Both the position numbers and the translations under genes were made by a program. The notes beneath the pieces are model-generated. The model worked only from the letters and a program-made list of their open reading frames with translations, had not been told where the DNA came from and did not search any database. 64,000 nt of DNA from Cohaesibacter celericrescens (GTDB lineage: Bacteria > Pseudomonadota > Alphaproteobacteria > Rhizobiales > Cohaesibacteraceae): assembly GCF_002866925.1 (NCBI RefSeq), contig NZ_PKUQ01000001.1:434001-498000 (forward strand), written 5' to 3'. Numbering within the stretch: position 1 is the first letter of the stretch; each line of letters begins with the position of its first letter. Positions 4,946 to 60,576 of this stretch are shown here, piece after piece.

Positions 4946-6292
4946 TTAGGATTTTACTGGGTCAAGCAGGCTGCCAATGACGGCAGGGATCGGCTCGCTG
5001 ATAACAACACTGTCGCCAACGTTCAAACCCTCGCGAATGACAATCATGCTATCAAGCGCAGGCCCAACAACAATCTCTTTAGTTGCGAGGCGACTATCGC
5101 TATCCATCACATAGACAAAGGTTTTACCATCACTGGAGGTGTGAACCGCAGAGCGAGGAATACGGATGGCTTCCAACGGATTTCTGGCGGACAGTGTCAC
5201 CTTGACAAAGGTACCGTTCGACAGCGGTGGGCGGCGATTGATCGGATCTGGCTTATAGGGTGTCTCGATGCGCACAGCCATGCCAAGCGCCCCGGTTGTT
5301 CCGTCCGCGGTGCCATTGAAGCGAACCAGTTTGGCAGGCCAGATTACAAGGCCCTCATCGTCTGGCAATCGGATGCTGGCTTTGAGATCCAGTTCACTTA
5401 TGCGATCAAACACATCGATTTCTTCTCCCATAACCAACAGTTCCTGAAGGTCCAGGCGTGCAATCGAGCGAAACAATTGACCCAGCACATAAGGCTGAAA
5501 CTCTGCCACCACTTCAGAGGCACTGATATCCTCCAGCGTCAGCATCTTGTCGCCCACGCGCATATATTGGTCTTTAGCTATGTCTTTTTCCGTCACCAGA
5601 CCGGTAAAAGGCGCCGTGATAACGGTGTTATCCAAGGAGCGCTGGGCTTCTTCAATCTCGACATCGCGTGCAGCTATGCTCGCTTCAAGCGAGGCCTTTT
5701 GGGCAGGCACAAGACGCAATGTATTCTCAATGCCAAGGATCACCTTCTGCTGAGCAAGCAGGGATCGGCGCGCCGTATCGACAGTTGTCTGGGAGGCACT
5801 ACCACGCGACTTCAACTCAATCTGACGATCGAGATCAGATTGCAGCAGGCTTTTGACTTCTTGTTCAAGCTTCAGTGTAGCGCGATTGTTGCTTTGCGTG
5901 GTGTCCAGTTCGTCGAGTGCGGCTTGAGCGCTGTCTCTATTGGCCTTGGCTCGGTCTAATGCGATTTCATAATTGCGTGAATCGATGCCGATCAACTTTG
6001 AGTCTTCCGGAACCAGCTTACCAACAGCCGTGGCCGGATCCAAATAGGATGCGCGACCTTCTACCTGTGCAATCGCAGACCAGCTCTGCACAGCCTCAAG
6101 GCGACCAAACCCAGAGATTTCCGGGATAAAGGAGCGCTTGGCAATTTCCACAACACGCACCGCCTGCGCTTGTTCGGGTATGCTTGTTGCGGTCTGATCC
6201 TTGTTGGCATTGTTCATCCATAGAAACACACCAATACCAATGGCCAACGGTGGAATGAAAAGCAGTTGGCGTGCATTCATGGGGAACTTCAT
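4946..6292 (-). CDS. RND efflux membrane fusion (periplasmic adaptor) protein
   Basis: The 448-residue product has an N-terminal membrane anchor (about residues 9-26), a split lipoyl/barrel-sandwich domain around a long coiled-coil hairpin (about 110-220, Ala/Gln/Arg rich), the phrase NTVITAPFTGLVTEKDI typical of HlyD/AcrA adaptors, and beta-barrel and membrane-proximal domains after that. It would link the pump encoded just downstream to an outer-membrane channel. The start ATG at 6290-6292 is followed directly by the anchor. It is the first gene of a two-gene operon, and no adjacent regulator gene is seen. Confidence 0.9.
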   Translation of the reverse strand: MKFPMNARQLLFIPPLAIGIGVFLWMNNANKDQTATSIPEQAQAVRVVEIAKRSFIPEISGFGRLEAVQSWSAIAQVEGRASYLDPATAVGKLVPEDSKLIGIDSRNYEIALDRAKANRDSAQAALDELDTTQSNNRATLKLEQEVKSLLQSDLDRQIELKSRGSASQTTVDTARRSLLAQQKVILGIENTLRLVPAQKASLEASIAARDVEIEEAQRSLDNTVITAPFTGLVTEKDIAKDQYMRVGDKMLTLEDISASEVVAEFQPYVLGQLFRSIARLDLQELLVMGEEIDVFDRISELDLKASIRLPDDEGLVIWPAKLVRFNGTADGTTGALGMAVRIETPYKPDPINRRPPLSNGTFVKVTLSARNPLEAIRIPRSAVHTSSDGKTFVYVMDSDSRLATKEIVVGPALDSMIVIREGLNVGDSVVISEPIPAVIGSLLDPVKS

Positions 6293-6825
6293 TTGCTATT
6301 TCTCCGGCCGGTTCACGTTGTTGGGTCGTTGGATGCGTCTGCCGCTAAACTGACTATTTGGTTTTTAAAAATGCTCAAACAAAAGCAAAAAGCTCGGCGC
6401 GCTACCAAAGTCATTTGCATCGCAGATACAAGCTATTGCCAAAATGGTACACCAGAAAAATGTATCCAAATGTAATGTGTGGAGCAAATGCCGCTTGTCG
6501 GTGCCGAATTTGGCGAGCAAATAGCCCCCTTTGGGCCAACAACGTCCAAGACCGACGCCAAAAAACCCATCGCCAACATCGGCTTTCAGATCCGACGCTC
6601 ATCATAGCGAACAGTGCAGGATAGAAATGAAACGCAGCGCTCTCGCGACACAATTTTCAAAAACCGGCGATGCCTAGTGAAGTCTGAGCTCTTTGGAGAT
6701 GTGGCGCCACAGTGAGAATACCATTTTTCACGAAGGTGAACGGGCGTGAAATGGTCTCCGGCATGGTCTACGGCTCCTAGCAGCTGCTAAAAGCTGGAGA
6801 AAAAAGAATGATTTAACTGAGAAAA
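6293..6825. other. intergenic region upstream of the efflux operon
   Basis: These 533 bases lie between the efflux operon start and tRNA-Phe. Short open frames on both strands (for example 6411-6653 minus) have no family resemblance and overlap one another, so I call no gene. The AT-rich stretch at 6355-6385 is a plausible location for the efflux operon promoter, but no consensus hexamers can be assigned with confidence. Confidence 0.35.
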
Positions 6826-20135: not shown

Positions 20136-20151
20136 TGGTAGGCCCGGAGGG
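20136..20151 (+). repeat. attL core, 16-bp duplicate of the tRNA 3' end
   Basis: TGGTAGGCCCGGAGGG here is identical to 60561-60576. As the reverse complement it is CCA, the discriminator base, the acceptor-stem strand and one T-stem strand of the tRNA. No other tRNA part is present here, so it is a border duplication and not a tRNA gene. Confidence 0.9.
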
Positions 20152-22220: not shown

Positions 22221-22288
22221 TAAGGCAAGGCTGTAGAACAGCCGCCGCCGAAAGGGTGACAGCCAATTGCGCAGCAAATGGTGAGAAC
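22221..22288 (+). repeat. two-hairpin prophage element, copy A1
   Basis: Stem 1 is GGCTGT-aga-ACAGCC (22229-22243), followed by the conserved CGCCGCCG. Stem 2 is CCA-A-TTGC-gca-GCAA-A-TGG (22263-22281). A stem-1-like fragment also lies just upstream at 22191-22220. The copy sits between two minus-strand lysis genes and reads on the plus strand. Both stems differ in sequence from the other copies but keep pairing. Confidence 0.7.
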
Positions 22289-22290
22289 CC

Positions 22291-22326
22291 AAAGCGCCAG
22301 TCAATTGCGAAGCAAATGACGAGAGC
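22291..22326 (+). repeat. two-hairpin prophage element, copy A2 (stem 2 half only)
   Basis: AAGCGCCA is followed by GTCA-A-TTGC-gaa-GCAA-A-TGAC (22300-22320) and GAGAGC. The first hairpin is missing or replaced by copy A1 directly upstream. It keeps the central A-A mismatch seen in other copies. Confidence 0.7.
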
Positions 22327-22820: not shown

Positions 22821-22889
22821 TAAGGCAAGGCGCGATGCGCCGCCGCCGTTAGCACGCGCCAGTTCCTCGCGTAAGCGATGAACGAGAGC
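22821..22889 (+). repeat. two-hairpin prophage element, copy B
   Basis: AAGGCAA leads to GGCGC-gat-GCGCC (22829-22841), then CGCCG, GCGCCA, and stem 2 GTTC-C-TCGC-gtaa-GCGA-T-GAAC (22862-22883) and GAGAGC. It lies immediately upstream of the M15 endolysin start, in the opposite orientation to that gene. Confidence 0.75.
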
Positions 22890-23047
22890 AGGCAGTTTTT
22901 TTTTGGGGGGGGGTATTTCGTCTTACGGCTCAGTGCAAAACCGGATTGCATCCGAACAATACCTATACTTAAGGGGGATATTCACCCCAAGAGATTGTAA
23001 TTTTTAACTATTCTAATTACAGAATATTCTAGGTAAGGAATATTCAA

Positions 23048-45076: not shown

Positions 45077-46337
45077 TCCCCGCACCTCCTTGAATTGATT
45101 CACCGTTCGAACTCGACGCTTCAGCGGGCCGATGGACGCTCTCGTTCATTGCCTTGCAATGCTCGGCGGTGTCCGCCTTGCGGACTTGCCTGCCGTAATC
45201 ATTCAAATCTTGCCTGCCGTCCGGCCACAGCTGACCAGCAGAACGGCCCTCATACCGGATGCGTCGTGTGGTCATGTCCAGATACGCCCGAAGGCTGGCC
45301 AGATCCTTTGTGTCGCCATCGGCGATCAAAATCTCTTTGCTGCACTCTGCCGGCACATGCATCCGCAGGCTGGACCAATCTGGCACCAAGGCAGGCAACA
45401 GGCGCAACGCGTCATCGGGATGTGGGGTGCGGGGAGCATCGGGGTGGAAGCGTCCGGTCAGATTGCCCAACGTACCGGCCACCCAGCCCGCCTTGCCCAA
45501 TCGGGTGATTTCACCAACCGTCTCGATGCCCTCACCCACATACATCGTGGGTGCTGGCGGCGTCAGCCTGATCGAGCAACCAAGGAAAGGCCCGCGGATC
45601 TTTTTGGCTGGCAGCTTCTCAGCCTTGCCATCGATGAGCGCCTCAATCACCGCCTTGCCCGATCCGTCCGGCAAAAGCCAGGTCATATGCACAGCACTGA
45701 AATGCCCGCAACGGTCTTGAAACGCGGCCAGCATCGCAGGGCCGGAATGGACAATGCGAAAGACGTCCTTTTCCACTTCTTCCCAATAAGGCAAATCAGC
45801 GGTGAAGCGCAGGCAAGGCACATCGACGTTAAAACCCGCCAGATCGCGCCCCTCGACCATATAGGTCTCGGCGATTGTGCCCTTGGCGCTCACACCAGCA
45901 GCAAAGATTTGGCGGGCTTTAAGCTGGCTTTTGGCCGCACTCTTCTTCGCTTCCTCATCCCTTGCCGCTTGGCGGGCCTTGGCCTCATCACTCATCTTTT
46001 GGCGCACCGGCGCCGACAAAGACTCGCGCTTGCCGCCCAGCATTTCCATAGCTTCGTTAAAGTCAGCCGCCCCACAAAAATGCATCATCCAGTCGACAGG
46101 GCTAAACCAACGCTCGTTCAGTTCGCAGCCGGTCGAATAGCAGTGATAAAGATTGCTGGACGGATTCATCACAAAGCTTGCGCCTCGATCGCGGTGCGCA
46201 GGGTTCGGACAGCGGCCAGACATCAACGCCCCAGCCTTCTTGAGCCGCGTATGGGCACCAATCGCGCCAACCAGATCAAACTCTGCCTTGGCGCGGGTGA
46301 CAACTTCATCGGGGTAGCGCATGCGAGGGGACGTCAT
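45069..46337 (-). CDS. CHC2 zinc-finger / Toprim DNA primase
   Basis: The 422-residue protein begins with a CHC2-type zinc finger (GRCPNPAHRDRG and LYHCYSTGC), followed by a Toprim-type domain with VGEGIETVGEITRLG and acidic LIADGDTKD. Together with the D5-type helicase it makes a split primase-helicase pair. It overlaps its neighbours on both sides, showing tight coupling. Confidence 0.87.
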   Translation of the reverse strand: MTSPRMRYPDEVVTRAKAEFDLVGAIGAHTRLKKAGALMSGRCPNPAHRDRGASFVMNPSSNLYHCYSTGCELNERWFSPVDWMMHFCGAADFNEAMEMLGGKRESLSAPVRQKMSDEAKARQAARDEEAKKSAAKSQLKARQIFAAGVSAKGTIAETYMVEGRDLAGFNVDVPCLRFTADLPYWEEVEKDVFRIVHSGPAMLAAFQDRCGHFSAVHMTWLLPDGSGKAVIEALIDGKAEKLPAKKIRGPFLGCSIRLTPPAPTMYVGEGIETVGEITRLGKAGWVAGTLGNLTGRFHPDAPRTPHPDDALRLLPALVPDWSSLRMHVPAECSKEILIADGDTKDLASLRAYLDMTTRRIRYEGRSAGQLWPDGRQDLNDYGRQVRKADTAEHCKAMNESVHRPAEASSSNGESIQGGAGND

Positions 46338-49364: not shown

Positions 49365-49579
49365 GCCACCTCACTTTGTTGTTTGGCCTTGACCAGATCA
49401 TTCACCCGATCGCGCAACTCGATAAGCTCACCAAACGTGAGCAAACTGTCGCGGATATCGCGGTTCTGGAATGGACCGGCCGCGCGATAAAAGACGTTAC
49501 CGGACACCTGATCAGGCACCTCATAAACCGCGATCCGGCGCGTTGGTGTGAAGGTTTGTTTCTTGCGGCGATTACCCAT
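49361..49579 (-). CDS. small basic phage protein
   Basis: The 72-residue product (MGNRRKKQTFTPTRRIAVYE) is basic at its N-terminus with an acidic helical C-terminus (LTFGELIELRDRVNDLV). No family is recognised. It overlaps the DnaA-like gene's stop by eight bases. Confidence 0.6.
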   Translation of the reverse strand: MGNRRKKQTFTPTRRIAVYEVPDQVSGNVFYRAAGPFQNRDIRDSLLTFGELIELRDRVNDLVKAKQQSEVA

Positions 49580-50411
49580 GACGCGCTACCTCACCGTGAC
49601 GCAGGACTCTCTTGAAAGTCGCTGGCGCGAAATGCTGTCGCTGCGTTATCGGCGTCGGCTGTTTCACAGCCTTGCCTGTCTTGCCGAGTGTTTTTGCGTC
49701 GGCATTAAGAGCATCAGCTTGCTGCGCTGTCAGCCCGATTGATCGGGCATGCCCGTCGATCTGGTCGCGCACGGTTGCATGCGAGCATTTCAGCCAGCGC
49801 GCAATTTTTGAGATAAATTCGCCACGCTCTGTATAGAGCTTGTAAGACAGATGATTGCGGGCCGCAGTAGCCACATTCTGCTGACCAATGCCTTTAACAA
49901 TAGCCCACTCGGTGGTGCCATATTCGCCCGCCAAGGCCCGCACCAATGGCGCGATAGGCGTTGGCATTTTGGGTGGCTCTGGTGCCAGCGCCGGAACCTT
50001 GCCAGTCCATCGGTTGGCCAGCTTGCAAACGACCTGGGGCCTAAGCCCGAGGAGTTCAGACATTTCCTCATAGCCCATAGCCCAACGGTGGCGCAGCGCA
50101 TAACAAAGCTGTGACCGAGCAGCAGAGCCTTTGTGATAGGCCATCAAATCAGATAGGGAAAGATCGTGGTAGGCACAACATTCGCGCACCAGATGTTTGA
50201 TACGCCCATCAAGCAGCTTGAACCAAACCGGATCTGATGACGGGATTTCTGTTTCGTCCGAATCCGTGGCTCCGCGTGGTCGTCCGCCCTGTATCGCATA
50301 TATATCAGCCAAGATATTCGGGCTGTCAGGATAATCCAGAGCAATGCGGCGCGGACTGTTGCCACGGGTCAGCCGCTGGCGAATGCGGGCTGCTTCTTGC
50401 GGGTTGATCAT
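49572..50411 (-). CDS. DnaA domain IV-like DNA-binding protein, replication-linked
   Basis: The 279-residue protein has two helical modules that look like DnaA C-terminal DNA-binding domains: RSQLCYALRHRWAMGYEEMS with LLGLRPQVVCKLANRW, and ARNHLSYKLYTERGEF with IARWLKCSHATVRDQIDG. The segment between them is Pro-rich. With the iteron cluster about 6 kb downstream, an initiator role is possible. That is inference from layout only. Confidence 0.55.
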   Translation of the reverse strand: MINPQEAARIRQRLTRGNSPRRIALDYPDSPNILADIYAIQGGRPRGATDSDETEIPSSDPVWFKLLDGRIKHLVRECCAYHDLSLSDLMAYHKGSAARSQLCYALRHRWAMGYEEMSELLGLRPQVVCKLANRWTGKVPALAPEPPKMPTPIAPLVRALAGEYGTTEWAIVKGIGQQNVATAARNHLSYKLYTERGEFISKIARWLKCSHATVRDQIDGHARSIGLTAQQADALNADAKTLGKTGKAVKQPTPITQRQHFAPATFKRVLRHGEVARHG

Positions 50412-53734: not shown

Positions 53735-53808
53735 AGGCAAGGCCATTGGCCGACGCCGATCGCAAGCGCATAGCGCGCGCCAGTTCATCGCAAGTGATGA
53801 ACGAGAGC
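53735..53808 (+). repeat. two-hairpin prophage element, copy C
   Basis: CAGGCAA, stem 1 GGCC-att-GGCC (53741-53751), linker GACGCCG, AGCGC, GCGCCA, then stem 2 GTTCATC-gcaagt-GATGAAC (53783-53802) and GAGAGC. It is 21 bases from the ATG of the next gene candidate. Confidence 0.75.
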
Positions 53809-53829
53809 CTCTTAAACCGGAGTCCAGTC

Positions 53830-54108
53830 ATGACCTGCTACCTCCCCACCAGCCAGCCCCGCTTTGAGCATCGGCGCCTTGCTTTGGCTTCTGCATTGGC
53901 CAGCACAGCGCTGCACACGTTGTTTGATGTCAGGCAAGGCGGATGCGCCGCCGACGCCGACAACCAGCGCCAGTCAATTGCAAAGCAAATGACGAGAGCA
54001 CCACGGGCTAATGAATGGGTCACATGCCTCAAACATTTGCCTGCGCTGGGCTTCACGCTCGCCGGCACAACCACTTTCACCTTTTTCATCATCGCAATCG
54101 GAACCTAG
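53830..54108 (+). CDS. small protein with C-terminal membrane segment (uncertain)
   Basis: The 92-residue frame starts at ATG 53830 with GGAG seven bases upstream. Its N-terminal part (FEHRRLALASALASTALHTL) is helical, the middle is an in-frame translation of element copy D, and the end (TTTFTFFIIAIGT) is hydrophobic. Either a gene that has absorbed the element, or two shorter pieces. Between two early genes, and no family recognised. Confidence 0.35.
   Translation: MTCYLPTSQPRFEHRRLALASALASTALHTLFDVRQGGCAADADNQRQSIAKQMTRAPRANEWVTCLKHLPALGFTLAGTTTFTFFIIAIGT
53931..53999 (+). repeat. two-hairpin prophage element, copy D
   Basis: CAGGCAA, stem 1 GGCG-gatg-CGCC (53938-53949), linker GACGCCG, CAGCGCCA, stem 2 GTCA-A-TTGC-aaa-GCAA-A-TGAC (53973-53993) and GAGAGC. 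Stem 2 is nearly identical to A2. It lies inside a possible reading frame. Confidence 0.75.
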
Positions 54109-54184
54109 GCAAGGCGCGGAGCGCCGCCGCCGAACGCAAGCGCATAGCGCGCGCCAGTTCCTCGCGCAAGCGAAGAACGAGAGA
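54107..54184 (+). repeat. two-hairpin prophage element, copy E
   Basis: TAGGCAA, stem 1 GGCGC-gga-GCGCC (54113-54125), GCCGCCG, CATAGCGCGCGCCA, stem 2 GTTC-C-TCGC-gcaa-GCGA-A-GAAC (54157-54178), GAGA. The first base overlaps the TAG stop of the frame before. It precedes the gene at 54214 by 29 bases. Confidence 0.75.
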
Positions 54185-54213
54185 CCTAACCGCACCAAGA
54201 GAAAGCCAAAACA

Positions 54214-54576
54214 ATGAGCGAAGACACCCCAATTTTACGACAATTCAGCCAGGTGCTGCAGAGCATTTCAGACGGCGACTTTCATCAAGATTGCTCAGAC
54301 GAGCTGGAAAGGGTCCGCAGCACTCTGGTCGAACACATGCTGGACTTTGGCGGTGAGCCATCGGGCACACTGACCATCAAGCTCAAGCTGAAAGTCGAAA
54401 AAGGCATCCTGTCTATTCGCCCATCGCTTGATGCAACGGTGCCCAAAAAGCCGCGCAGCACATCCACCCTCTGGATGACTGAAAAAGGCCTCACACCGCT
54501 GAACCCGAAACAGATGGAAATGTTCAACGGCAAACCAAGAACCATCACCGAAAACACCGAAGTCAAAGTCCTTTAA
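54214..54576 (+). CDS. conserved early phage protein
   Basis: The 120-residue protein (MSEDTPILRQFSQVLQSISD) has a helical N-terminal part and a beta-rich middle (TLTIKLKLKVEKGILSIRP). Proteins of this type occur upstream of DUF2303 genes in alphaproteobacterial phages. The function is unknown. It is flanked by element copies E and F. Confidence 0.65.
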   Translation: MSEDTPILRQFSQVLQSISDGDFHQDCSDELERVRSTLVEHMLDFGGEPSGTLTIKLKLKVEKGILSIRPSLDATVPKKPRSTSTLWMTEKGLTPLNPKQMEMFNGKPRTITENTEVKVL

Positions 54577-54580
54577 CAAA

Positions 54581-54648
54581 GCAAGGGCGCACCGCGCCCG
54601 ACGCCGCAAGCCAGCGCCAGTTGATAGCCATAGGCAATCAATGAGAGC
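54581..54648 (+). repeat. two-hairpin prophage element, copy F
   Basis: GCAA, stem 1 GGGCGC-acc-GCGCCC (54585-54599), linker GACGCCG, AGCGCCA, stem 2 GTTGAT-A-GCC-ata-GGC-A-ATCAAT (54620-54642) then GAGAGC. The stem 2 bases are almost all different from other copies, yet pair fully around the same A-A mismatch, the clearest case of compensating change. Confidence 0.8.
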
Positions 54649-54676
54649 GACCAACCCCAACCACACAGGCAAGACA

Positions 54677-55672
54677 ATGGATCTAACCGCAGCCATCAAC
54701 CGAATTTCTGAAATGTCCGGCCAATTCAGCGACCCCGAAATTCTGACTATTCCGCACAGCAACGGCGAAGACAAACTCTCTTTTGTGATCACCCGTGACG
54801 CTCAAGGCGGCATGGTGACCAAAGACGTCACCAAGGATCTGGAACGGTTCGATGATCACCCGTTGCGCCGCGAAGGAACAGCGGTGATGGGCAACCTCGA
54901 CAGCCTGATCGCCCACGTCAACCGCTTCAAAACCCCTGAAAGCGCCTTGTTTGGCGAGCGTGTGGGTAACAATGAAGTCCTGAAAATCACCGGGGTGATT
55001 GACTATCATGATCGCGTCAACAAACCGGAAGAGGATAAATGTCCGGACGATCTGCCAATGCATCCAGACGCCAATCCCCAGCATTGCAAACATCGGGTAA
55101 CGCATGAATTCCCCCTGTCCGATGAAATCAAGGCATGGACGAAAGTCGCCAAAAACCCGCTGGACCTTCTCAGCTTTGCTTTGTTTCTTGAAGACAACAT
55201 TCTGGATGTGCTCCCGCTGCCCGATTTTCTCAGCAGCGAAACAGAACCAGAGTCCAATTCCGACAAAAACCTCAAAGAGCTGGTCTACAAATTGGATGGC
55301 AAGCCATGCGGCTATCGTAAGCTAATGGAGCTGTCCAAAGGCATCCAGATCAATGAAGGCAGCAAGTCTCAAACCTTCATAAACAAAGACACCGGCGAAC
55401 AACAGATTGGCTTTGAGAGCGAGCACGAGGATGCCGAAGGCAACAAGCTCGAAGTGCCAAACATGTTCCTGATTGCCATCCCGATTTTTGAAGGCGGCGC
55501 CGTCTATCGCATTCCAGTGCGGCTGCGCTATCGCAAAAATCGCGGCGACCTTGTCTGGCTGATCGAACCCTACCAGCTGGATCGCTACATCAAAGACGCA
55601 TTCACCGAAGCATGCGCCGACGCAGCAGGCTTCACCGGCCTACCGCTCTTCTTTGGTCAACCAGAGACATAG
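54677..55672 (+). CDS. DUF2303 family phage protein
   Basis: The 331-residue protein starts MDLTAAINRISEM and is a full DUF2303 member, with LDSLIAHVNRFKTPESALFG and YRIPVRLRYRKNRGDLVWL. The family is frequent in early regions of phages, its function unknown. The ATG at 54677 is chosen over ATG 54641, which lies in element copy F. It is followed by a 160-base structured gap. Confidence 0.85.
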   Translation: MDLTAAINRISEMSGQFSDPEILTIPHSNGEDKLSFVITRDAQGGMVTKDVTKDLERFDDHPLRREGTAVMGNLDSLIAHVNRFKTPESALFGERVGNNEVLKITGVIDYHDRVNKPEEDKCPDDLPMHPDANPQHCKHRVTHEFPLSDEIKAWTKVAKNPLDLLSFALFLEDNILDVLPLPDFLSSETEPESNSDKNLKELVYKLDGKPCGYRKLMELSKGIQINEGSKSQTFINKDTGEQQIGFESEHEDAEGNKLEVPNMFLIAIPIFEGGAVYRIPVRLRYRKNRGDLVWLIEPYQLDRYIKDAFTEACADAAGFTGLPLFFGQPET

Positions 55673-55836
55673 AATCCCGTAGCGAACCCCACGCAGTGAA
55701 GCGCAAACCCAAAGGGTGACCGTGGAGCGTGGGTAGTAGGCCGCATGGGGCGGACCATGCAGGGGGAACGCCACCTCCTATCAGGCGTGACAGTCGGGAG
55801 AGTACCGACACCTGATTTTATTGAGAGGAAATCGAT
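55673..55836 (+). ncRNA. structured leader ahead of the Acb2-like gene (candidate)
   Basis: The 164-base gap folds into three hairpins: CCCACGC/GCGTGGG (55688-55694, 55727-55733) enclosing ACCC-aaa-GGGT; GCATGG/CCATGC (55743-55748, 55755-55760); and ATCAGG/CCTGAT (55780-55785, 55811-55816) enclosing GTCGG/CCGAC. GAGAGGA follows, before the ATG at 55837. No known riboswitch or RNA family is recognised. Confidence 0.55.
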
Positions 55837-56289
55837 ATGAAAGCCTATCAATCACACAAAGTTGTTGAAGCAGCCAAGATCACGAAAGCCGAACACCAAG
55901 AAGATGGCCGCTGGCATCTCATGCTTGATGGAGACGTGGTCGAGACAACCACTATCGATGAAGCAAAGCGGTTCAAGGTCACTGAAGAAGATCTCGGATA
56001 TTTTGTTCGCTACCCTGATGGTTACATTTCTTGGTGGGCAACAAAGGCCTTCGAGGAAGCGTATGAAAAAACTGCCACCGCCAAACCTGCCTCGCCACCT
56101 CGCGATAATATTATGCAGTTTTTCACATTCACCCATTTGCCTGAGTTTTTGCAGGAAGCGAGCGAGCCATTCTGCAAATTGGCCGAATTTATTCAGGTGA
56201 ACATCCCGCGCAATCCTGAGCGCACTGTCGCTCTTCGGAAATTGCTGGAAGCAAAAGACGCGGCAGTCCGCGCCGTTGTCGCCAAGTAA
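55837..56289 (+). CDS. two-domain early protein with Acb2/Tad1-like C-terminus
   Basis: The 150-residue product has an N-terminal domain (1-76; MKAYQSHKVVEAAKITK, ending DGYISWWATKAFEEAY) frequent in phage proteins, and a C-terminal helical hairpin (95-150) with FTHLPEFLQEASEPF and PRNPERTVALRKLLEAKDAA. The latter pattern resembles the Acb2/Tad1 hairpin, which binds cyclic nucleotides and blocks CBASS or Thoeris defence. The match is from memory of family features, so function is provisional. Ribosome site GAGAGGA. Confidence 0.6.
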   Translation: MKAYQSHKVVEAAKITKAEHQEDGRWHLMLDGDVVETTTIDEAKRFKVTEEDLGYFVRYPDGYISWWATKAFEEAYEKTATAKPASPPRDNIMQFFTFTHLPEFLQEASEPFCKLAEFIQVNIPRNPERTVALRKLLEAKDAAVRAVVAK

Positions 56290-56394
56290 CCCAATTCCCC
56301 GCGTCGGGCACCTCTGAAACTGGCCCGTTTCAAACCAATACACAGCCCGTCGCGGGGTGCATAAGCAAGGCAAACATCGCCACCGGAGATCACT
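56290..56394 (+). ncRNA. structured leader ahead of the HD-domain gene (candidate)
   Basis: CCCCGCG-T-CGGG pairs with CCCG-T-CGCGGGG across about 45 bases (about 56296-56358) with a T-T mismatch, and inside it GAAAC pairs with GTTTC. AAGCAAGGCAA follows, as in the start of the two-hairpin elements. It fills the gap between two early genes. Confidence 0.5.
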
Positions 56395-57114
56395 ATGACC
56401 CTCGCACAAAAACACAGCAGTTATGCTCCACCCCATCGCCCGATGAACCTGCCGGCAGACTATAGCCCAAGCCGCGAGTGGCTCAAGCTGGGCGATGATG
56501 GCTGGTGGGATTTTGAAAATCCGGAAAACAGCCGTTGGAGCTGGCGCGGGCTGGCATCCAGCATCGCCAAGCAGCCACGATACAACGGCAACACCGGCAC
56601 CATCTGGTCGGTCGCTCAGCACAGCGTTCTGTGCCACGACCAGGCACCGGATGAAATCAAGTTTTTTGCCTTGGTCCATGACCTGCCCGAAGGGGCATTT
56701 GGCGACAAGGTCCAGCCGCAAAAGGCCTATGACAAGCGATTGATCGCAGAGCATTTTGCGAGGGCAGGATCACTGATGCCAGCCGATGCGCACGCTCGCA
56801 TCCTCCGCCAATTGATGTTCGATTTGCTCGAAGAATTGGAACGCCCAGAACACGACGTGTTGCTGAAAATATTTGTTAGAGCCAAGAAGTCACTCCCGTC
56901 CATAGAGCAAGGACGCATCATGAAAGTCATAGACCATCGCGCCCTGTTGACCGAAATGCACCAGCTCAATTTCGCGCCGGACTGGCCGCTGAATATCGAC
57001 CCCGCACTCATGCCTTTCGACGTCGCCATCCTGCCCCATCATCGTTGGCAGGATTCCTATGAGGAATACCTCGATCGCTTGTCGCTTTACGTAGATTTAG
57101 GCGCTCAACGCTAG
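56395..57114 (+). CDS. HD-domain phosphohydrolase-like protein
   Basis: The 239-residue protein has an HD core: SVAQHSVLCHD (H and H) and FFALVHDLPEG (HD), with GDKVQP after. It resembles YfbR-type 5'-nucleotidases carried by phages, which may adjust dNTP pools. It ends at a TAG that overlaps the start of element copy G. Confidence 0.82.
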   Translation: MTLAQKHSSYAPPHRPMNLPADYSPSREWLKLGDDGWWDFENPENSRWSWRGLASSIAKQPRYNGNTGTIWSVAQHSVLCHDQAPDEIKFFALVHDLPEGAFGDKVQPQKAYDKRLIAEHFARAGSLMPADAHARILRQLMFDLLEELERPEHDVLLKIFVRAKKSLPSIEQGRIMKVIDHRALLTEMHQLNFAPDWPLNIDPALMPFDVAILPHHRWQDSYEEYLDRLSLYVDLGAQR

Positions 57115-57172
57115 GCGTTGACGCCGTCAGCAAGCAAAGCGCGCCAGTTCATCGTAAGCGATGAACGAGAGC
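57114..57172 (+). repeat. two-hairpin prophage element, copy G
   Basis: Stem 1 GGCG-ttga-CGCC (57114-57125), a shorter linker, GCGCGCCA, then stem 2 GTTCATCG-taag-CGATGAAC (57147-57166) and GAGAGC. The next gene starts 28 bases further. It has lost the CAAGG leader and part of the linker. Confidence 0.72.
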
Positions 57173-57200
57173 CTTCACACAAGAACAAAGGAATCGCCCC

Positions 57201-60560: not shown

Positions 60561-60576
60561 TGGTAGGCCCGGAGGG
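60561..60576 (+). repeat. attR core within the tRNA gene
   Basis: The 16 bases are identical to attL (20136-20151). They cover CCA, the discriminator base, one acceptor strand and one T-stem strand. Integration therefore leaves the tRNA intact at this end. Confidence 0.9.

Follow-up and report, generated by a model that had tools for sequence, protein, structure and literature searches.

The window analysed here, a stretch of 64,000 nucleotides of the Cohaesibacter celericrescens genome (contig NZ_PKUQ01000001.1, positions 434,001 to 498,000), contains a prophage with ten copies of a two-hairpin DNA repeat of about 70 bases. These copies are probably small non-autonomous mobile palindromic repeats at home in the temperate phages of one genus of Hyphomicrobiales. 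An earlier sequence-only reading of the window had left three options for the repeat, namely a control element of translation or RNA stability, a protein-binding palindrome or a small mobile palindromic repeat. The third is favoured here, since copies occur in both orientations and inside coding sequences, are nested within one another and have an empty site in relatives. What stands of that overall interpretation is a real family whose structure is kept by compensating changes; its translation or RNA-stability and protein-binding options are not favoured. Some copies may also act as RNA.

Structure and covariation of the repeat

All eight stretches named in the sequence-only reading are present in the window, although 22291–22326 consists of the second hairpin only and the first hairpin of 57114–57172 is degenerate. 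The covariance-model search which that reading had proposed revealed two further copies in the window. The model used (R1) was built from six window copies and one on contig C15 of the same genome; against the 5.0-Mb own genome it yielded 11 matches at E<=0.01, the ten in the window and the one on C15, with E-values down to 3e-14. Full copies measure approximately 65–87 bp and comprise two hairpin modules, each of which is also found singly, following the plan A-GGC-AA-[stem 1]-GAC/GCC-GCC-G, a spacer of about 5–21 nt, and GC-GCCA-[stem 2]-GAGA-GC. Two short outer helices, GGC/GCC and GC/GC, extend the stems seen earlier: in the first module the 5' GGC pairs with the GCC located behind stem 1, and in the second, a 33-nt hairpin, a GC pair closes the outside of the GNCA/GAGA internal loop. 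The central mismatch of stem 2, previously thought to be fixed, is not, as the centre is unpaired in 23 and paired in 28 of the 51 matches with letters there.

The compensating base changes are borne out in a larger alignment. A second model (R2) was built from 48 copies, representing 46 distinct rows that come mostly from the genus, with three from another genus, g24. In this alignment 94.1% of the cells pair, against 25–44% in slid controls, and 171 cells are changed on both sides, compared with 50.4 +/- 5.4 in shuffles. The 56 matches at E<=1 behave alike, with 93.8% of cells pairing and 197 double changes versus 57.6 in shuffles. Both alignments were fitted to the model, which favours these pairing figures, and therefore all 2122 column pairs were ranked on the 41 rows of the same alignment that fall below 85% identity. 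The proposed pairs make up 10 of the top 11 in this ranking; above the 95% level of column-shuffled nulls lie 10 proposed pairs and 8 others, several of which neighbour proposed ones.

The absence of a known family with this plan holds as far as Rfam is concerned. At gathering score the window matches three tRNAs only, and at E<=10 the region 53500–57300 matches four families, each of them eukaryotic and scoring far short of gathering. Literature searches, covering open-licence PMC only, found no published description of the element family.

Empty sites, nesting and placement

One clear case of an empty site concerns the two-hairpin element at 54579–54649 (plus strand, R1 72.7 bits), which directly follows the stop codon of the gene at 54214–54576. 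The corresponding site is empty at the relative loci L182, L179, L193 and L190: the gap between the flanking genes is 28, 28, 8 and 8 nt in the four relatives versus 64 in the window, or 100 if the downstream gene starts at 54677. The leader that comes after the stop codon in L182 comes after the element in the window, as judged by eye. Less clean contrasts between filled and empty sites are offered by L182:11603 against L179 and by L179:5889 against the window. By eye, L189 has a first module lodged in the stem of a second one; L178, L180 and L186 hold copies that are in tandem or duplicated in part.

The remaining window copies illustrate the range of settings. The two-hairpin element at 22223–22289 (plus strand, R1 72.5 bits), in which an outer U-A replaces C-G with compensation, runs opposite to its flanking genes and stands in tandem with the solo second hairpin at 22291–22326 (plus strand; R1 32.5 bits over model positions 33–69, R3, a model of hairpin 2 described below, 50.9 bits). 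A further element at 22823–22890 (plus strand, R1 80.5 bits) lies 14 nt from the start codon of an opposite-strand endolysin-like gene; nine T followed by nine G at 22896–22913, directly behind this copy, represent an assembly artefact or a hypervariable tract. In line with what had been read for the lysis region, three copies run opposite to the genes. The early region carries two-hairpin elements at 53735–53809 (plus strand, 64.6 bits), 53932–54000 (plus strand, 81.6 bits, the top R1 match) and 54107–54185 (plus strand, 68.3 bits), the last being 28 nt before the start codon of a 120-aa gene. At 57108–57173 (plus strand, 45.9 bits) an element whose first hairpin is degenerate sits where the gene that ends at 57114 has its stop codon. 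Five copies had been placed 20–30 bases before early genes; this is right for those at 54107 (28 nt) and 57108 (27 nt), and for 54579 if the start is the ATG at 54677, but for the copies at 53735 and 53932 the next predicted gene is 404 and 213 nt away, and only short open reading frames (ORFs) intervene.

Two window copies, the ones added by the model search, lie within predicted genes. A shortened copy at 45139–45191 (minus strand; R1 34.5 bits, R2 E 5.6e-7) falls in the 3' part of a gene of the primase family, where, by eye, it is read in the GAG-AGC frame, and a diverged copy at 49607–49677 (minus strand, R1 54.7 bits) falls in the 3' part of the predicted gene 49572–50411, where it is read in another frame (also by eye). 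Of six copies that overlap a same-strand predicted gene, four use the GAG-AGC frame, and over 41 copies this frame is open in 28, the other two in 23 and 18.

Placement was counted over the 56 matches at E<=1, a set that includes partial matches and three of genus g24. Genes of the opposite strand flank 20 of them and genes of the same strand 16; a further 13 lie in a gene of the same strand and 2 in one of the opposite strand, with 5 mixed. Where the upstream gene is on the same strand (n=28), the start of 18 copies falls between -7 and +13 nt relative to the stop codon of that gene; where it is opposite (n=28), 8 copies are 14–16 nt away from the start codon of that gene, a position immediately outside the ribosome-binding site.

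These positions bear on a cis-acting phage RNA element, working in translation, mRNA stability or antitermination within the transcript of the neighbouring gene, which we consider unlikely. Such an element would agree with the compensatory changes, with the two-hairpin plan of about 70 nt and with the 18 copies situated 16–47 nt before the start of a same-strand downstream gene (n=34). However, the 20 of 56 copies between opposite-strand genes would be present in mRNA as the complement, which does not offer the conserved letters of the loops; some copies are read as part of a protein, and no Rfam family matches. The mismatches argue in the same direction. On the element strand, leaving out the mid-stem pair, all copies together show 35 G.T, 13 A.C and 25 other mismatches. 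If mRNA were the functional strand, copies opposite to genes should tolerate A.C over G.T, and the reverse is seen (14 G.T to 5 A.C). This weakly suggests that the folding strand is the element strand whatever the direction of the gene, be it as folded single-stranded DNA or as an antisense transcript.

Distribution in prophages

All ten copies lie in a prophage of about 40.4 kb (20136–60576, no strand assigned) with repressor, primase, endolysin and integrase families. It is bounded by a 16-bp direct repeat (20136–20151 and 60561–60576) which matches the 3' end of tRNA-Met and presumably represents the attL and attR sites. The IMG/VR record of this prophage is 43,792 bp long and, by position arithmetic, reaches left to about 16693. 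The host flanks, as far as they extend in the window, are indeed free of copies, all ten being located between the presumed att repeats.

In the own genome, 10 of the 12 R2 matches at E<=1e-3 fall inside the prophage, which makes up 0.8% of the genome. The other two are on contigs C15 and C50: the C15 copy adjoins a tail-lysozyme/endolysin-like gene, and the two-module C50 copy (L538:6185–6251) abuts a tRNA-Ala gene (6252–6327) that follows tRNA-Ile, as in an rRNA operon spacer. Since the assembly is 91% complete with 8% contamination, both contigs may belong to another organism. Among the own genome and the 60 relatives searched, R1 matches below 1e-5 are all within the same genus, and R2 matches at E<=0.1 in 14 of the 18 genomes of the genus.

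Comparison with PHROG considered one gene per locus, near the copy or up to about 6 kb from it, at 20 loci (18 of the 27 relative loci, L546 and L553), and gave a match at E<=1e-3 in 18 of them, some weak. The two-module form is therefore largely a phage element of this genus, and its copies adjoin varied phage modules (primase, tail, lysis, DUF2303, RusA). The repeat had been called prophage-specific, which is largely true of the two-module form and fails for relatives of the second hairpin, which occur outside phages.

Three pattern scans of IMG/VR gave at least 120, 71 and at least 120 stretches, and one of genome_contigs at least 120, mostly chance matches in each case. Of 8 loci that passed a stem filter, two are counted as true: L222, which is the prophage of the window, and L201, whose prophage is identical to the one in genome G006; among the genome_contigs matches listed none passed this filter, which misses diverged copies. 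With one copy as query, blastn found 2 records in INPHARED (best E 0.1) and 13 among plasmids (best E 0.04), none covering 80%. Four partial plasmid matches (H88, H89, H92, H93; query bases 2–46 or 14–50, E 0.5) lie in DUF1403 genes of Mesorhizobium/Agrobacterium and may be chance or in-gene relatives.

Relatives of the second hairpin outside phages

Among 397 genomes of the order, 49 have matches (E<=0.01) to a model made of the second hairpin only (R3, from 37 phage, g24 and chromosomal sequences); three genomes of g24, a genus of another family, have 11, 12 and 7 of them. A spread over host genomes in the manner of REP repeats, named in the sequence-only reading as what would favour a mobile repeat, is thus found for hairpin 2 in g24. 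Eight proteins encoded beside g24-type and other chromosomal copies included no transposase and one phage integrase.

A second form of about 40 bp, roughly CATTGMCCGGCAR-stem-GAGAGG, is located in or beside transposase genes. In raw counts, the flanking frame carries a transposase-type Pfam domain at 21 of 30 loci, and these loci were assigned to IS3, IS481, IS5, IS6, IS256, IS630 and IS91. Of the other nine, six have Fic, MalK-type, DUF1826, enoyl-CoA hydratase, AMP-binding or EAL domains and three have nothing. One flanking frame was taken per locus, in some cases up to 344 nt from the hairpin. The 30 leave out copies of the same insertion (L541, L543, L594, L595, L602, L623, L626), loci with the pattern and no hairpin (L613, L615, L620) and R3 matches of another form (L606, L611, L612); L617, L625 and L628 may still represent a single insertion sequence, L627 lies next to L628, and the assignment of L617 rests on HTH_21 alone.

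For three groups (IS6, IS3 and IS256) the insertion is within the gene. The stretch that uninterrupted homologues lack measures 40 nt in IS6, 40 nt in IS3, including the Roseibium IS3, and 39 nt in IS256, where the hairpin is one base shorter; a diverged IS6 copy in the own genome differs by 41 nt. By eye, no target duplication is visible at the insertions in these three groups. In the own genome, L593, L594 and L595 (on C1, C23 and C45) are IS6-family transposase genes with the same hairpin insertion at the same place and about 86% identity, which suggests that the element spread once the hairpin had interrupted it. The pairs L542/L543 and L540/L541 are near-identical insertion-sequence regions that carry the 40-bp form at two chromosomal places. 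A role of the transposase hairpins in translational bypass was rejected, as they occur in both orientations relative to the gene.

In 9 of 385 genomes of the class, the pattern TTGMCCGGCAR-N-GAGAGG gave 16 matches, three of them without a clear hairpin, versus 5 for the reversed control, and at E<=10 a 43-nt consensus matched 87 records of plasmids, the majority from roseobacters.

This distribution also bears on the proposal that the repeat is a DNA palindrome bound as a duplex by a phage protein (a repressor, replication or recombination factor) and for that reason retained at the borders of genes. Either orientation would serve such a site, and several copies per prophage and short conserved motifs in both modules would suit it; yet paired positions vary freely with pairing kept, which duplex sites do not need, and the hairpin plan is also found in transposase genes and host chromosomes, which makes the proposal quite improbable. 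That the repeats are homologous joints for shuffling genes between phages of the genus is hardly credible: they do occur at prophage gene borders beside different modules, but a copy can be present or absent between otherwise collinear genes, the stretches shared between copies are short because the stems differ, and any such joining could be a side effect of mobile copies.

Proposed mechanism and candidate enzymes

For the small mobile repeat favoured here, we infer a single-strand mechanism. An enzyme acting in trans would recognise one polarity of the repeat as a folded single strand, which replication, for instance, would expose, and would move it to new sites. The structure would then be kept because the enzyme recognises the fold, and insertions would survive only where they do little harm, namely immediately behind a stop codon or ahead of a ribosome-binding site, in gene ends that tolerate them or in transposase genes that are dispensable. 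A broader proposal, which we put forward tentatively and with some doubt, is a superfamily of folded single-stranded elements of 40–80 nt, parasitic on mobile DNA. Throughout Alphaproteobacteria they would insert into transposase genes and phage genomes, leaving no target duplication, with an enzyme other than the known Y1/RAYT proteins as carrier.

Y1 transposases are the known carriers of such hairpins. The Y1 domain PF01797 (E<=0.001) is present in carriers G000 and G006 and absent from the other five of the seven carrier genomes (G016, G008, G040, G120 and the 78% complete G150), each of which has one form or the other. Y1 frames occur in 9 of the 18 genomes of the genus and, fragments apart, are 147–179 aa long, the size of IS200, and R2 found nothing convincing beside the 24 Y1 places (best E 0.076). 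A link to Y1 transposases is not supported by these results. Y2 proteins are encoded by three of the seven carriers.

Several observations weigh against mobility. Besides the lack of Y1 in most carriers, the Y1/Y2 comparison of carrier genomes found no mobilising enzyme. The empty site of the phage form is one clear case, at 37–65% protein identity, plus several less clean ones. A position beside stop codons and ribosome-binding sites equally fits a regulatory element; moreover, the tight distances do not apply to 10 of the 28 copies whose upstream gene is on the same strand, nor to 20 of the 28 whose upstream gene is opposite, and the gene calls behind the placement counts come from a simple in-house gene finder. 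The G.T bias is partly expected, since the model scores G.U above A.C and the copies are related rather than independent. As to the 40-bp form, 9 of 30 loci lack a transposase domain in the frame scanned, and the phage and transposase hairpins would be of common descent on the strength of a shared structure and short sequence, R3 having been made from both.

Mobile palindromic repeats are already known from bacterial chromosomes. If the reading as mobile repeats is true, a full form in phages with relatives in and beside transposase genes would make these elements parasites of parasites. With filled and empty sites in hand, the insertion chemistry and the mobilising enzyme become searchable, and covarying positions at the borders of phage genes can be a sign of mobile DNA instead of regulatory RNA.

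Comparison with known repeat families

The HK022 put sites likewise combine two hairpins in about 70 nt and lie in early operons of the phage, with two copies per phage in transcript orientation, whereas the present prophage has ten copies, in both orientations and partly inside genes.

REP repeats (repetitive extragenic palindromes, with the GTAG and CGTC superfamilies) are, according to PMC8266576, short imperfect hairpins that are dispersed, and module 2 has the hairpin of 20–40 bp expected of them. In the same source, TnpA-REP recognises the folded single strand in one polarity, guided by the foot and the irregularities of the stem. The feet of module 2 are mostly S-C-G-N-C-A on the 5' side and GAGAG on the 3' side. 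Set against the GTAG/CGTC definition in PMC3733652, there is no GTAG tag and CGTC occurs in only 2 of 37 module-2 sequences; unlike the CGTC REPs described there, there are no stems starting with AT and no CCA tail. The lack of a Y1 transposase in five of seven carriers and the largely phage-confined two-module form also differ from REPs. REPs usually exceed 100 copies per genome, according to PMC2817692, and the g24 counts of 11, 12 and 7 are far below this.

Rickettsia palindromic elements (RPE), as described in PMC10969869, are palindromic repeats of about 150 bp, often within genes, that insert in frame and add a peptide. The use of one frame by four of the six copies overlapping a same-strand predicted gene would be a possible parallel, with window copy 49607 read in another frame; by that description, the present elements differ in being mostly intergenic, phage-borne and composed of two modules. 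The same source reports that BOX/RUP-type repeats of pneumococcus cluster and insert into one another. The clustering and mutual insertion seen here are alike by description, and the lack of a visible target duplication is a difference. That lack, judged by eye at the 40-bp insertions in IS6, IS3 and IS256, also separates the family from MITEs. The family is accordingly not filed as REP, in view of the tag and RAYT results, nor as MITE, for want of a target duplication, nor as RPE. It works like REP or RPE but differs from REP in tag and cognate transposase.

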